64,000 nt of DNA, from positions 1,495,549 through 1,559,548 of the forward strand of contig NZ_CP005986.1 in the NCBI RefSeq assembly GCF_000175575.2, written 5' to 3'. Below, piece by piece: positions 28,809 to 34,437 of the stretch (the stretch's first letter is position 1; every line of letters begins with the position of its first letter). Under the pieces are notes generated by a model. The model saw nothing but the letters and a program-made list of their open reading frames with translations. It did not search any database and was not told the origin of the DNA. The DNA comes from Acidithiobacillus caldus ATCC 51756 (lineage in GTDB: Bacteria > Pseudomonadota > Gammaproteobacteria > Acidithiobacillales > Acidithiobacillaceae). The translations under genes were made by a program, and so were the position numbers.

Positions 28809-30581
28809 TTATCCCGGATGCGGCTGCAAGCGCAAGGCCAGGCCGGTCGCGGGGGCGTTGATGGGCTCCATGGTCCAGTTGCCCCGACCGTCCAGCCTCA
28901 GGCAGCGCTCGTGGAAGGCGAGCAGGCTGGAGCGATGGCCGACGCTGACGATGGCGGTATCCGGCAGCTGCTCCAGGAGCAGTCCGTAGAGGGCCTGCTC
29001 CGCCGGCTCGTCCAATGCCGACGAGGCCTCATCCAGAAACAACCAGGGTGGGCGGTGGATGAGCACGCGGGCAAAGGCCAGGCGCTGCTGTTCGCCGAGA
29101 GACAAGGTGTGTGACCAGAGCTTGACCTCATCCAGCTGATCCGCAAGAGTCGCCATGCCCACCAGATGCAGGGCCTGGCGCAACCGCTCGTCGTCCGGGG
29201 CGGCCATGCCGAAGGGATAGACGAGCACATCGCGCAGACTACCCATGGGCAGGTAGGGGCGCTGGGGCAGGAAAAGCGGTCGATCGCCGGCGGGCATGGT
29301 CACCCGACCATCGCCAAAGGGCCAGATGCCGGCCAGGGCGCGAATCAGCGTGCTCTTGCCACCGCCCGACGGACCCATGATCAATAGGCGCTCGCCACGG
29401 CGCAGCGCAAAGTCCAGATCGCGAACCAACTCGCGGCCATTGGGCAGACGCACCGTAAGCCCGTCGACGCGCAGATACGGACCGTCGCGGCGCTCGATGT
29501 GGTAATGATTATCCTGGATGCGATGGACCTCCTCCATGGACTGCTGAAAAAAGCGCAGTCGATCCACCACCGCATGCCAATTGGCCAGGCTGCTGTAGCT
29601 GCTGACGATGAAGGACAAGGCTCCCTGCACCTGACCAAAGGCCGAGGCGATCTGCTGTAGCCCGCCTATACCAATGGCCTTGTTGACGAAATAGGCGGGC
29701 AGGCTGACCAGGATGGGGAATATGATGGCGGCCTGACCATAGCCGGAGCTCCACCAGTTCAGGCGCATGGACCGCCAGATGATGCGCCAGTAGTTGGCAT
29801 AGACCTCGGCAAAGCGGCGCAGGAAGTGGTGCCGTTCTTCCCCTTCGCCGCGGTACAGAGCGACGCTCTCGCTGTTTTCGCGCAGGCGCATCATGCTGAA
29901 ACGGAAGTCCGCCTGATAGCGCTCCTGGTTGAAATTGAGCTGGATGAGGGGCTTGCCGATCCTCGCCGTGATGACGGTACCGAACACGGCGTAGATCAGC
30001 GCCGCCCAAACCAGATATCCGGGGATGGTAAACGTGTGCCCCTGCCAGGGGATGGTAATCAACGCCGACAGTTCCCAAAGCATGAAAACGAAAGCAAAAA
30101 GGGTGGTGATGGAACTCAGCAGACCGATCGCGATATTGAGGGTCATGCTCGTGAAACTGGCCAGATCTTCGCTGATACGTTGATCTGGGTTGTCCGTCCC
30201 ATCCCCCAGAACCTGCATGTGATAAAAGGTGCCGCGCGCGAGCCAGGCGTCCAGGTATTCCACCGTCAGCCAGCGCCGCCAGCGGATCTCCAACATCTGC
30301 GTGAAAAAGGTCTGGGACACCGCAGCGATGATGTACAGGGTGGCCAGACCCAGGAAGATGGCCATCTGGGTCCAGGCTGCCTGCACCTGAAAATGCTGCA
30401 GGGCATTCCAGAACACCGCATACCATTGGGTGATGCGGTAGGAGATGAACACCATGAAGAGATTGAGCGCAATGATCAGGGCAAACACCCAGCGCGCCAG
30501 CCAGCGCTCGGGCGAACGCGACCAATAGGGTTTGATGATCTGCCACAGATCGCGGAAAAAGGCTCGGTTGAACTGCTGCAT
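28809..30581 (-). CDS. SbmA/YddA-like ABC transporter, fused permease-ATPase
   Basis: A 590-residue half-transporter. Six membrane helices (about 25-300) belong to the SbmA/BacA-type permease family; the nucleotide-binding domain (about 370-570) has Walker A GPSGGGKST, signature LSLGEQQRLAFAR, Walker B WLFLDEASSALD and a switch histidine in SVGHRSSL. Relatives include E. coli YddA and peroxisomal ABCD proteins; cargo may be peptides, cobalamin-like or acyl compounds, but nothing in the sequence decides. It is divergent from the DsrE gene. Confidence 0.88.
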   Translation of the reverse strand: MQQFNRAFFRDLWQIIKPYWSRSPERWLARWVFALIIALNLFMVFISYRITQWYAVFWNALQHFQVQAAWTQMAIFLGLATLYIIAAVSQTFFTQMLEIRWRRWLTVEYLDAWLARGTFYHMQVLGDGTDNPDQRISEDLASFTSMTLNIAIGLLSSITTLFAFVFMLWELSALITIPWQGHTFTIPGYLVWAALIYAVFGTVITARIGKPLIQLNFNQERYQADFRFSMMRLRENSESVALYRGEGEERHHFLRRFAEVYANYWRIIWRSMRLNWWSSGYGQAAIIFPILVSLPAYFVNKAIGIGGLQQIASAFGQVQGALSFIVSSYSSLANWHAVVDRLRFFQQSMEEVHRIQDNHYHIERRDGPYLRVDGLTVRLPNGRELVRDLDFALRRGERLLIMGPSGGGKSTLIRALAGIWPFGDGRVTMPAGDRPLFLPQRPYLPMGSLRDVLVYPFGMAAPDDERLRQALHLVGMATLADQLDEVKLWSHTLSLGEQQRLAFARVLIHRPPWLFLDEASSALDEPAEQALYGLLLEQLPDTAIVSVGHRSSLLAFHERCLRLDGRGNWTMEPINAPATGLALRLQPHPG

Positions 30582-30695
30582 CGATCACTCCAAATGCTGG
30601 ACGACGCCCCCGTGGAGGTCCGAATCGCGGTCCTCGATGGCCCGCTTATTGCTATGCTTGGGATAGGGATCCCTCACGCAAGCAAGGAGCATAAC

Positions 30696-31187
30696 ATGGC
30701 CGAAACCAAAAACCATTCCCGTCGTCAGTTCATCGGTAGCCTCGCCATCGCCAGCGTCGGTGCCATCGCCGCGAGCGCCCAGGGTGGCGAAATGGGCATG
30801 GGCATGGGCATGGGCGGTCCCAGCAAGAACAAGGTCGTCTATCAGCTCAACAAATCCGACCCCGCCTACATCCTCGACATCCTGCACAGCGCCGCCGTGG
30901 TCCTCGGTCATTTCAACAACGATGTCGACATCGTCATCGACTGCTTTGGTCCGGGTATCTGGCTGCTGGTCAAGGACGAACACAACAAGCACCACTACGA
31001 GGCCTTCATCCGCGAGCAGGTGTCGAGTCTTGCCATGTACGGCGTGGTCTTCAATGCCTGCGAGCAGACCATGAAGACCATCAAGATCACCGCCAAGGAA
31101 CTCATCCCGGAAGCAAAGCAGGTTTTCAGCGGCGCCGTGGATCTGATGCTTTTGCAGCAGCAGGGCTACGCCTACATCGCCTGGTAG
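30696..31187 (+). CDS. Tat-exported DsrE-family protein
   Basis: A 163-residue protein. The N-terminus has a twin-arginine signal (HSRRQFIGS then a hydrophobic stretch to about residue 27), followed by a Gly-Met run EMGMGMGMGG and a DsrE-like domain from KVVYQLNKSD to the end, with cysteines in VIDCFGPG and FNACEQTMK. DsrE/DsrF proteins handle sulfur through cysteine persulfides; export by Tat would put this one, folded, in the periplasm. AGGAG precedes the ATG. It is divergent from the ABC transporter and ends 14 bases from the convergent nitrilase gene. A role in periplasmic sulfur handling is inference. Confidence 0.85.
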   Translation: MAETKNHSRRQFIGSLAIASVGAIAASAQGGEMGMGMGMGGPSKNKVVYQLNKSDPAYILDILHSAAVVLGHFNNDVDIVIDCFGPGIWLLVKDEHNKHHYEAFIREQVSSLAMYGVVFNACEQTMKTIKITAKELIPEAKQVFSGAVDLMLLQQQGYAYIAW

Positions 31188-31201: not shown

Positions 31202-31999
31202 CTAGAGCCGCCGGTGCTGCCACACCGGCAGGCTGCGGCGTTGGGCCTGCTGCCCATCGAGGTCACATTCGGCCACCGCCACCCCCGGATGCTGGTCCAG
31301 GTGGACCAGCACTTGTCCCCAGGAGTCGACGATGGTGCTGCCACCGAAGGTCTCGCGCCCGTTGGCATGACGGCCACCCTGGTCGGCAGCCAGCACGAAG
31401 GCTTGGTTCTCGATGGCACGGGCACGCAGGAGCGCATACCAGTGTGCGGCTCCGGTCTGGGCCGTAAAGGCGCTGGGCACCACCAGGAACTCCGCGCCGG
31501 CGTAGGCCCGAAAGAGTTCCGGAAAGCGCAGATCGTAGCAGATGGACAGACCCACCACACCCCAGGGGGTGGGCACGGCAACCACTTGCCCGCCAGGGGC
31601 GATGGTACGGGACTCTCGATACTGCTCACCCCCCGGCAGATCGACATCGAAGAGGTGCATCTTGTCGTAGCGCGCCCGACAATGGCCGTGGGGATCCATG
31701 ACCAGCAGGCTGGCGAAGACCCGCCCGTCGGGACTGCGCAGCGGGATGCTCCCACCGAACAACCACAGCCCATGCTGCCGGGCCTGGGTGGCAAGCCACT
31801 CCTGGATCTGGCCGGAACCTGCCTCCTCGGCAATGGCGAGTTTGTCGCTCTCGTGCCGCCCCATGAAGGCGAAGTTCTCGGGCAAGAGTGCGAGCTGCGC
31901 ACCCCGCTCCGCCGCCTCGCCCAGGAGCTTCTGCGCCATGGCGAGATTGACGTCCACCTCGGGGCCGGAACAGAGCTGGACGACCGCGGCCTTGACCAT
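31202..31999 (-). CDS. Carbon-nitrogen hydrolase (nitrilase superfamily)
   Basis: A 265-residue cytoplasmic amidohydrolase with the full Glu-Lys-Cys triad: E in LALLPENFAF, K in YDKMHLFDV and C in SICYDLRFPELF. It is closest in look to the Nit1/Nit2 group that hydrolyses deaminated glutathione or omega-amides; specificity is not certain. The ATG at 31997-31999 gives MVKAAVVQL; the frame is open 14 codons further up into the amidase gene but without family similarity. It lies 5 bases after the amidase gene and is the last gene of the long minus-strand run. Confidence 0.9.
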   Translation of the reverse strand: MVKAAVVQLCSGPEVDVNLAMAQKLLGEAAERGAQLALLPENFAFMGRHESDKLAIAEEAGSGQIQEWLATQARQHGLWLFGGSIPLRSPDGRVFASLLVMDPHGHCRARYDKMHLFDVDLPGGEQYRESRTIAPGGQVVAVPTPWGVVGLSICYDLRFPELFRAYAGAEFLVVPSAFTAQTGAAHWYALLRARAIENQAFVLAADQGGRHANGRETFGGSTIVDSWGQVLVHLDQHPGVAVAECDLDGQQAQRRSLPVWQHRRL

Positions 32000-32004
32000 G
32001 GTTC

Positions 32005-32976
32005 CTAGGCGTGCAGGATGGGGACGCGCAGGTAGCCCCATGCTGGCAGTTGCGCGGAGACGAGGCCGTTGGCTAGCCGGAGGACGTTGGGCCGCACGCC
32101 ATAGCGTGCCGCCAGCTCACTGAGGGTCTCCCCCGGGGCGATGGCGTGTCGTGCCGAGGACCAACGCGAATCGCTGGGGGGCGCCTGGACGAAATGGGCA
32201 AGGACGGCATCGCTGATGCTCTGCGCGAGGAGCGCACGAAAATCGGGGTCTCGCAGTCTTTTCTCTTCCTCGGGATTGCTGAGAAAGGCTGTTTCCACCA
32301 GCAGCGAGGGTACGTTGGGCGCGCGCAGGACCACGAAATTCGCCTTCTGCACCTGAGCCGCGTGCAGATCCTCCACCTCCGCCAGAGCGCGCAACAGGAG
32401 TTGGGCGGCGCGCGTGGCCGCACTGCTGGCCGCGCTGCGACTGAGATCCAGCAGCACGTCGTGTAATTCGCGACTGCCAGCCAATGCCGCGCTGCTGTCC
32501 CAGAAATCGCCATTTTGGCTCTGCGCTAACCAGCGTGCGGCACTACTGCTGGCCCCCCGCTCCGAGAGAATCCACACACTAGAGCCGCGGACGTCGCGCT
32601 CGGGGAAGGCATCGGCGTGAATGGAAAGGAAAAGGTCCGCCCGCTGCCGTATGCCCAACTGCAGGCGCTGCGCCAGCGGGACGAAGACATCCGTGCGTCG
32701 GCTGTACACCACCTGCAGACCGGGTACCGCCTCCAATAGCGCCCCCACCCGTAGCGCGACATCCAGAACCACATCTTTCTCGCGCAGCCCTTTGGCGCCG
32801 ATGCAGCCCGGATCGTGGCCGCCGTGGCCCGGATCGATGCAGACCACCACCGGTCGCAAACCCTCGGCTCGCGCCCGACCCAGACCAAGCCCAGCCGCAA
32901 GGCCAAGGCCCAGCGCCGCGGCCCCGCCACGTAAAAAGCGACGACGGCCTGGATCGCACCTACTGGGAATGGACAA
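32005..32976 (-). CDS. amiC: N-acetylmuramoyl-L-alanine amidase with LysM domain
   Basis: A 323-residue periplasmic cell-wall amidase that cleaves the stem peptide from MurNAc during cell separation. It has a Tat signal (GRRRFLRGG, then Ala/Leu/Gly core to about 36), a zinc-dependent Amidase_3 domain (CIDPGHGGHDPG, SIHADAF, LVETAFLSN) and a C-terminal LysM-like module (HAIAPGETLSELAARYGV) for peptidoglycan binding. E. coli AmiC uses an AMIN domain N-terminally instead. The symbol is by similarity only. Confidence 0.88.
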   Translation of the reverse strand: MSIPSRCDPGRRRFLRGGAAALGLGLAAGLGLGRARAEGLRPVVVCIDPGHGGHDPGCIGAKGLREKDVVLDVALRVGALLEAVPGLQVVYSRRTDVFVPLAQRLQLGIRQRADLFLSIHADAFPERDVRGSSVWILSERGASSSAARWLAQSQNGDFWDSSAALAGSRELHDVLLDLSRSAASSAATRAAQLLLRALAEVEDLHAAQVQKANFVVLRAPNVPSLLVETAFLSNPEEEKRLRDPDFRALLAQSISDAVLAHFVQAPPSDSRWSSARHAIAPGETLSELAARYGVRPNVLRLANGLVSAQLPAWGYLRVPILHA

Positions 32977-33051: not shown

Positions 33052-33492
33052 CTAGACCGCAACCCCCTGACGACGCAGCCAAGCTTCGATCTCCGGAGCA
33101 TTCACCGCACCGGATTGCCGGGCCAGCTCGCGGCCGCCGCGCAAGAGCACCATGGTGGGTATGGAGCGGATCTGGAAGCGCGCAGCGGTCGCTTGGTCCG
33201 CTTCCGTATTGAGCTTGGCGAAAAGGCAACGGCCGCGCAGGCGACGTGCCGCCATTTCGAACTGCGGTGCCATGGCGCGACAGGGAGCGCACCACGGAGC
33301 CCAGAAGTCCACCAGGACCGGCAGGTCGTTCTTTTCCAGAAAACGCGAAAAAGCCGGACCCGCCAACTCCACGGGATGATCGGGCAAAAGCGGCTTGTGG
33401 CATTTACCGCATTTGGGCTCTTCGCCCAGACGTTCTTGCGGCAACTGATTTACGGCACCACAATGTGGACACACTACATGAATCGTCGCCAT
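33052..33492 (-). CDS. trxC: Thioredoxin 2 (TrxC-type) with zinc finger
   Basis: A 146-residue cytoplasmic disulfide reductase. The N-terminal zinc ribbon has CPHC and CGKC pairs (about 9-31), as in TrxC; the thioredoxin domain follows, with active site WCAPC in place of the usual WCGPC and the cis-proline in SIPTMVLLRGG. It is 15 bases downstream of the glutaredoxin gene, so probably part of the efflux/rhodanese operon. The Gly-to-Ala change may shift its redox potential (inference). Confidence 0.93.
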   Translation of the reverse strand: MATIHVVCPHCGAVNQLPQERLGEEPKCGKCHKPLLPDHPVELAGPAFSRFLEKNDLPVLVDFWAPWCAPCRAMAPQFEMAARRLRGRCLFAKLNTEADQATAARFQIRSIPTMVLLRGGRELARQSGAVNAPEIEAWLRRQGVAV

Positions 33493-33506
33493 GTAAACCT
33501 CCGAGC

Positions 33507-33785
33507 TCAGGACGCCTCGGCATCCGCCAGGAGGGCATCGAGACGCCCCTGGCGCTCCAAGGCCGAAAGATCGTCATACCCACCGATATGCCGTTCACCG
33601 ATGAACACCTGGGGCACGGTGCGTCGACCTTTACTCAGTCTCAGCATCTCCTGGCGCAGCGAAGGACTGTGATCCACGCGCAGGATACGCGGCTGTACGC
33701 CCTTGCCACGCAGCAGATTTTCAGCCATGTGGCAGTAGGGGCAGCTACCGGTGGCGTAGATGCGAACGTCCACGGGCGATGCCAC
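33507..33785 (-). CDS. grxC: Glutaredoxin 3-type protein
   Basis: A 92-residue dithiol glutaredoxin with CPYC (SCPYCHMAENLL), the TVPQVFIGERHIGGYDDL segment holding cis-proline and the glutathione-binding residues. It reduces mixed disulfides with glutathione. The GTG start directly abuts the stop of the rhodanese gene (TGAGTG), indicating coupled translation. The family is cytoplasmic. Confidence 0.94.
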   Translation of the reverse strand: MASPVDVRIYATGSCPYCHMAENLLRGKGVQPRILRVDHSPSLRQEMLRLSKGRRTVPQVFIGERHIGGYDDLSALERQGRLDALLADAEAS

Positions 33786-34211
33786 TCAGTCCTTTTCCAC
33801 CGGGAGGCCAGCGCTGCGCCATGCCGCGATGCCACCCTTGAGGCTGTAGACCTTGGTGAAACCGGCCTTCTTGAGGATGCCGGCGGCACGCGCCGAGCGC
33901 ATCCCGCTGGCGCACTGACAGATGACGTGATGCTCCTGGTGCTTACGCAGATCCGGCAGATACTTACCCACCTCGCCCAGGGGAATGTGGCGGGCGCCAG
34001 GCAGGTGGCCGCGCGACCACTCCCCCATTTCCCGCACATCGATCACCACAGCATCGTGGTCGTTGATGAGCCGCACCGCATTCTCCGGCGCGATCTCTTC
34101 GATCCCGGCGAGCTTACGGACGATGGGTCCCTTGAACAGGAGCGCCAGAACGGCCAATACCACCAGTATCAGTGGCCAGTGTGCGGACAGATAGCTACCC
34201 AGATCGGCCAT
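33786..34211 (-). CDS. Membrane-anchored rhodanese-domain protein
   Basis: A 141-residue protein. One hydrophobic helix (about 10-33) is followed by a single rhodanese domain with ENAVRLINDHDAVVIDVRE, HIPLGEV and the active-site loop CQCASGMRS; two cysteines are close together (CQC), the second being catalytic, then GGIAAWRSAGLPV. It should transfer sulfane sulfur, with the domain on the cytoplasmic face or the periplasmic face depending on topology. The ATG at 34209-34211 has GGAGG upstream. It resembles E. coli YgaP/YibN-type proteins and sits 4 bases after DUF2892, which in YgaP is fused to rhodanese. Confidence 0.92.
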   Translation of the reverse strand: MADLGSYLSAHWPLILVVLAVLALLFKGPIVRKLAGIEEIAPENAVRLINDHDAVVIDVREMGEWSRGHLPGARHIPLGEVGKYLPDLRKHQEHHVICQCASGMRSARAAGILKKAGFTKVYSLKGGIAAWRSAGLPVEKD

Positions 34212-34215
34212 CCTC

Positions 34216-34437
34216 TCACCTCCCGCAGACGCGGGCATCGCGCACGCCGAGCTTCAGAAGCATCTTCTCCAGGGGACAGAAACAACTCAGCCCGCTCTGC
34301 AAGAGATTAAACCCGACAAACGCGGTAAACGCCAAAAACCACTCGCTGACAAATATCGGGCTGCCGGGGATGCCCAGCGCCAGACTGAGCAGGATGAAAA
34401 GTCCGGCAACCACTCGCACCCAACGTTCGCTATTCAC
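34216..34437 (-). CDS. DUF2892 inner membrane protein
   Basis: A 73-residue protein with two membrane helices (about 8-28 and 30-50) and the DUF2892 pattern AFVGFNLLQSGLSCFCPLEKMLLKLGV, including a CFCP cysteine pair. In E. coli YgaP a similar hydrophobic unit is attached to a rhodanese; here the parts are separate adjacent genes. The GTG start overlaps the RND pump stop (GTGA, 34434-34437). The exact role is unknown; persulfide or thiosulfate-linked transport is suspected for the family. Confidence 0.88.
   Translation of the reverse strand: MNSERWVRVVAGLFILLSLALGIPGSPIFVSEWFLAFTAFVGFNLLQSGLSCFCPLEKMLLKLGVRDARVCGR

Follow-up and report, generated by a model that had tools for sequence, protein, structure and literature searches.

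DsrE of Acidithiobacillus has been placed in a Rhd-TusA-DsrE transfer to the Hdr-like complex by a transcript study of A. ferrooxidans (PMC2754497) and by reviews (PMC6335251, PMC10531304), and both reviews, in the parts accessible to us, assign DsrE to sulfur transfer in the cytoplasm. The accessible part of one of them raises as an open question why Acidithiobacillus has multiple rhd, dsrE and sox copies, and with what separate roles (PMC6335251). In other sources, likewise accessible in part, membrane vesicles of F. caldus are reported to contain DsrE-like proteins (PMC10853474), sox clusters of Sulfitobacter include DsrE and DUF302 genes as additional ORFs (PMC11034169), and the Picrophilus secretome was found to include a protein of the DsrE superfamily (PMC8345856). 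In the literature searched, which was partly accessible and thin in its coverage of subscription journals, we found no study of a DsrE that is exported or Tat-dependent and met no functional study of the signal-bearing DsrE group.

Here we analyzed a 64,000-nucleotide stretch of Acidithiobacillus caldus ATCC 51756 (hereafter the window), whose genome comprises 2.99 Mb in four contigs, and in particular a DsrE-family protein encoded there, P0001. This protein shares its superfamily and its organisms with the DsrE of the Acidithiobacillus rhd-tusA-dsrE-hdr cluster, which according to the accessible parts of the sources relays to the cytoplasmic Hdr-like complex (PMC2754497, PMC6335251), but P0001 is encoded elsewhere and has a signal-like N-terminus. 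If exported, P0001, as a conserved two-cysteine DsrE, would be a small, testable candidate for a sulfur-transfer step outside the cytoplasm.

The gene and its predicted fold

The gene, its mapped parts and its two direct neighbours are located in the window as follows.

28809..30581, minus strand: divergent neighbour, SbmA/BacA-like ABC transporter (context)
30684..30689, plus strand: Shine-Dalgarno-like AAGGAG, read 5' of the ATG
30696..31187, plus strand: DsrE-family gene of P0001 with a predicted Tat signal, 163 amino acids (ATG start; 163 codons plus stop)
30717..30737, plus strand: twin-arginine motif SRRQFIG, residues 8-14 (NHSRRxF in 24/24 orthologues)
30729..30779, plus strand: hydrophobic signal core and likely A-S-A cleavage site, residues 12-28 (hydropathy peak 2.04; cleavage site assigned by eye)
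30792..30818, plus strand: Gly-Met repeat MGMGMGMGG, residues 33-41 (read from the translation)
30825..31184, plus strand: DsrE fold, residues 44-163 (predicted model and structure matches)
30942..30944, plus strand: Cys83 codon, in CFGPG, at the end of strand 77-83 (24/24 orthologues)
31059..31061, plus strand: Cys122 codon, in ACEQT, at the end of strand 118-122; presumed DsrE-type cysteine (61/61 alignment rows)
31202..32041, minus strand: convergent neighbour, carbon-nitrogen (nitrilase-type) hydrolase (context)

P0001 begins with MAETKNHSRRQFIGSLAIASVGAIAASAQGGEMGMGMGMGGPSKNK, followed by the DsrE domain, and Cys83 and Cys122 are its only cysteines. All elements that an earlier note on this DNA had described, namely the twin arginines, the hydrophobic core, GMGMGMGG before the fold and the cysteines, are present in the translation. 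The assignment to the DsrE fold made in that note was borne out by a match to the Pfam family DsrE/DsrF-like (PF02635, residues 74-162: 33.6 bits versus a cut-off of 22.7) and by an AlphaFold2 model, built with 61 sequences, that matched DsrE structures (mean pLDDT 82.4; 112 of the 163 residues at 90 or more). The best structure match of the model was MTH1491 (PDB 1l1s; Z 20.1, rmsd 1.1 over 111 residues), followed by ST0148 (PDB 2pd2; Z 18.0) and its engineered relative (Z 18.1), and by other structures of the DsrE family, among them DsrEFH and TusBCD chains (Z about 14). The ten matches at Z 13.8 or more were DsrE-like chains, one of them engineered; the next was 1x9a at Z 7.8, and matches at Z 6.9 or lower were treated as background.

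MTH1491 and ST0148, which are DsrE-like proteins of unknown function, have the same fold as P0001 over 108-111 residues (1.1-1.5 Å, 24-26% identity), and each owns a cysteine aligned with Cys122. Their aligned chains begin with the fold, at residue 44 or 45 of the P0001 model, and MTH1491 has Ala in the column of Cys83 of P0001. DsrE of DsrEFH (2hy5) and TusD of TusBCD (2d1p) also have the fold in common with P0001 (Z 13.9-14.0), whereas the identity of the DsrEFH and TusBCD chains to P0001 is 9-14%, and the Tat-like signal is a feature of P0001. No partner subunits of the DsrEFH or TusBCD kind are encoded adjacent to P0001, the neighbours being the ABC transporter and the hydrolase, and all other PF02635 matches of the genome are more than 230 kb away.

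Signal and cysteines among relatives

A protein search of 29 Acidithiobacillaceae genomes gave matches in 25 and orthologues in 24, the match in genome G012 being left out of the orthologue count as a distant paralogue (E 6.4e-12, residues 47-161). Each of the 24 orthologues has a cysteine at the position of Cys122 together with NHSRRxF and CFGPG, and a GGAG-containing ribosome site lies ahead of every orthologue start (24/24). The nearest relative, from an Acidithiobacillus record (L009), is 98% identical to P0001, and over 162 aligned codons the two genes show 34 silent and 2 amino-acid-changing differences, indicating that P0001 is a real gene under purifying selection. The Acidithiobacillaceae proteins formed one supported group of 16 (100/99) in a tree built from 84 sequences, and this group was joined by seven gammaproteobacterial proteins (100/98); the deeper forks are unsure, given a short alignment and long branches that meet.

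Tat signals carry an S/T-RR-x-F-L-like motif ahead of a mildly hydrophobic core. P0001 has SRRQFIG, with the twin arginines at residues 9-10 within NHSRRQFIG, a mildly hydrophobic stretch and A-S-A, and its N-terminus fits a Tat-type signal as judged from the motif and its conservation. The Tat signal proposed in the earlier note is thus supported in the sense that a Tat-like N-terminus is conserved throughout the orthologues. TatC is encoded in all 29 Acidithiobacillaceae genomes, and an NCBIfam search of P0001 returned a weak match to a Tat-signal model, under its cut-off.

The same note had regarded export as unusual for a DsrE protein, and this had to be given up, since signal-like N-termini proved ordinary among the relatives of P0001: in this branch 69 of the 80 relatives were signal-like by a crude measure, and the genome holds three more signal-bearing paralogues. 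Signal-likeness was evaluated in 80 relatives, kept out of 82 found, as the N-terminal hydropathy peak, which detects hydrophobic N-termini and not signals as such. The threshold used first (1.6) passed 76/80 relatives and also 2/7 presumed cytoplasmic DsrE paralogues, and that of 1.9, which was set after the control scores were known (highest control 1.86), passed 69/80 and 0/7, respectively. For comparison, the peaks of seven soluble-looking window proteins were 0.04-1.43; membrane proteins score high too, and one relative (L084) was above the 1.6 threshold yet reads as cytoplasmic. A simple scoring of ribosome sites served to pick the start codons of the relatives, of which some are surely wrong (e.g. 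L069). Judged by eye, the signal-bearing relatives were mostly Sec-like, and a loose twin-arginine pattern was found in 15/15 relatives inside Acidithiobacillaceae and in 9/65 outside. On the evidence of these N-termini, Tat-like signals recur among the relatives and are uniform only within Acidithiobacillaceae.

That the cysteines are kept, as previously claimed, was confirmed for Cys122, which is invariant in the alignment (61/61 rows). Three DsrE-domain paralogues that lack a signal have a cysteine in the same column, which at 17-21% identity is weak evidence when taken alone. Cys83 was present in 16/16 Acidithiobacillaceae rows and in 0/45 others, where Ala is usual. From their position at the ends of consecutive strands of the model, Cys83 and Cys122 are predicted to be near each other. 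The sequence relatives of P0001 are uncharacterised signal-bearing, mostly Sec-like DsrE proteins of Proteobacteria, with which it has in common the invariant Cys122, a near-invariant G-P-G and a QQQGYAYI-like end; the P0001 family differs from them in its uniform Tat-like signal, in Cys83 and in a Gln in place of Asn two residues after Cys122. Going by the alignment, what is distinctive of the P0001 family is the combination of the uniform Tat-like signal with the second cysteine, Cys83. P0001 looks like a conserved variant, Tat-type and with two cysteines, of the signal-bearing DsrE proteins, which are a common group, and, exported relatives being common, it reads as a variant and not as a new kind of protein.

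Proposed role and alternatives

The role that we favour, with confidence evenly balanced, is that P0001 is a Tat-exported two-cysteine carrier of thiol or sulfane sulfur in the acid periplasm, where we infer both the export and the chemistry. P0001 would fold in the cytoplasm, be exported by Tat, and then work as a small thiol carrier in the acidic periplasm. There, sulfane sulfur would become bound to Cys122, in the form of a persulfide or a thiosulfonate, before being passed on, and Cys83, which ends the strand before that of Cys122, might cooperate with Cys122 as resolving or second acceptor thiol; the handling of sulfane sulfur by P0001 is plausible. Such a carrier is supported by the DsrE family and fold, the invariant Cys122, the conserved Tat-like signal, the presence of TatC in 29/29 genomes, Cys83 and the purifying selection, and also by an exported DsrE paralogue near a tetrathionate-hydrolase-like gene (see below) and the DsrE-like proteins of F. 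caldus vesicles (PMC10853474, in its accessible part). Against it stand the kept neighbours, which are not sulfur genes and both outlast the loss of the DsrE gene, the sister genes, which follow dnaJ, and the 5/29 genomes without the gene.

Regarding the neighbourhood, the ABC transporter and the nitrilase-type hydrolase adjoin the DsrE gene in 15/15 family loci (L009-L023; in L022 only the end of the hydrolase gene is on the contig), and no sulfur or metal partner gene was found directly beside it in these 15 loci. The closest genes outside the family, which are the gammaproteobacterial sister genes (L024-L029, L077), lie directly after dnaJ in 7/7 loci, a context in which no link to sulfur was found; at L028, the only locus so named by Pfam, the row is grpE, dnaK, dnaJ. 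The ORF caller used for the relatives' loci was crude, and some DsrE ORFs were mis-called (e.g. L024, L035, L043). Two further observations concern the window itself: positions 33052-34437, by an RND efflux gene, hold a single row of genes for thioredoxin 2, glutaredoxin, a rhodanese and a YgaP-like membrane protein, and positions 32005-32976 hold an N-acetylmuramoyl-L-alanine amidase with a twin-arginine start of its own, RRRFLRGG.

An orthologue of the P0001 gene was absent from five of the 29 family genomes (G003, G007, G008, G012, G014), and no intact copy was found in three-frame readings of the corresponding loci (L118-L121, L123). Clear remnants were seen at the site in two of the five, G014 (L119) and G012 (L123), consisting of the start MAQTKNHSRRHF and a C-terminal piece; the L120 site gave a weak 51-residue match, and the L118 and L121 sites gave no match at E up to 1. 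The gene was lost or decayed in these five genomes, indicating that it is dispensable for some family members. The ABC transporter is kept in all five, being split over two contigs in G012, and the nitrilase gene is still beside the transporter in all five loci read. Because both neighbours persist where the DsrE gene has been lost, we claim neither as a partner.

Four other explanations were weighed against a sulfur carrier. The protein could be a periplasmic redox or repair protein, in which a reversible Cys83-Cys122 disulfide would serve thiol protection or repair, or mere stabilisation, with no carriage of sulfur. We consider this unlikely: in its favour, the two conserved cysteines each close one of two successive strands, and the genes of Trx2, glutaredoxin and rhodanese (the last with a hydrophobic segment at its N-terminus) lie 1.9-3.1 kb off in the window, but this thiol gene group is found close to the DsrE gene in no more than 5 of 15 family loci (L022, among the other ten, ends too soon to tell), and relatives without Cys83 still have the invariant Cys122. 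A role as a binding protein of the envelope that performs no sulfur chemistry, such as an accessory of the divergent SbmA-like transporter, seems quite improbable, because the transporter, despite adjoining the DsrE gene in all 15 family loci, persists in the five genomes that lack an intact DsrE gene, and outside the family only distant ABC matches were found, at six of the clustered loci (L059 among them).

The earlier note had further suggested that the Gly-Met repeat might handle metals, and a metal-binding periplasmic protein acting through its Met-rich N-terminus would be favoured by MGMGMGMGG in P0001 and by the segment keeping at least one Met in all 24 orthologues. However, a functional metal site there found no backing in the comparison, since the repeat is not conserved: GMGM was found in only 10/24 orthologues, from the window's genus and one other, and the remaining 14 have a single pair instead, e.g. 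MMG, LMG or MLE. The run is encoded by a short GGCATG-type repeat; in L009, the nearest relative, it is already one glycine shorter, and most of the run falls within the low-confidence part of the model (pLDDT under 50 for residues 10-36). With GMGM being lineage-specific, a conserved metal site is not to be expected, and we rank metal binding through the repeat low, as very unlikely. That P0001 is a degenerate or unimportant relic is hardly credible; its absence from 5/29 genomes, with clear remnants in two, fits such a relic, but the 34 silent versus 2 replacing differences between the nearest relatives and the full conservation of the motifs in 24 genomes argue against it.

Other exported DsrE paralogues

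PF02635 matched 12 ORFs of the host genome, among which P0001 and at least three more (L114, L116, L117) have signal-like starts, the start of L115 being ambiguous. L117-type genes adjoin an outer-membrane-barrel-like gene, whose OMP_b-brl match is weak and under the cut-off. Near L114, a DUF302 protein and a tetrathionate-hydrolase-like protein (PDB 6l8a, E 6.3e-43) are encoded. The two arrangements are represented by the following loci.

L129:5781-7621 (G000:C1 near 2,688,780-2,690,620): barrel-like gene by a signal-bearing DsrE; also in L127 and L128
L127:6035-10702: row of signal-bearing DsrE, DUF302 protein, barrel-like protein, second DsrE copy and tetrathionate-hydrolase-like PQQ protein

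For the second DsrE copy of the L127 row, no convincing start was found. The tetrathionate-hydrolase-like neighbour is the strongest sulfur link of the exported DsrE proteins here, and it concerns the paralogues, not P0001. A wider proposal, which we regard as doubtful, is that Acidithiobacillaceae might run an extracytoplasmic DsrE sulfur relay, composed of the Tat-exported two-cysteine DsrE and the exported DsrE proteins paired with the barrel and encoded near the tetrathionate-hydrolase-like gene, which would transport sulfane sulfur across the acid periplasm in parallel to the cytoplasmic Rhd-TusA-DsrE relay. The barrel gene was found at 43 places in the family, and among 30 loci examined an L117-like DsrE lay within 1.5 kb in 22 (in one of them as a 37-residue match) and was absent from 8. 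Of the five genomes from which the Tat-type DsrE gene was lost, four are represented among these 8 loci.
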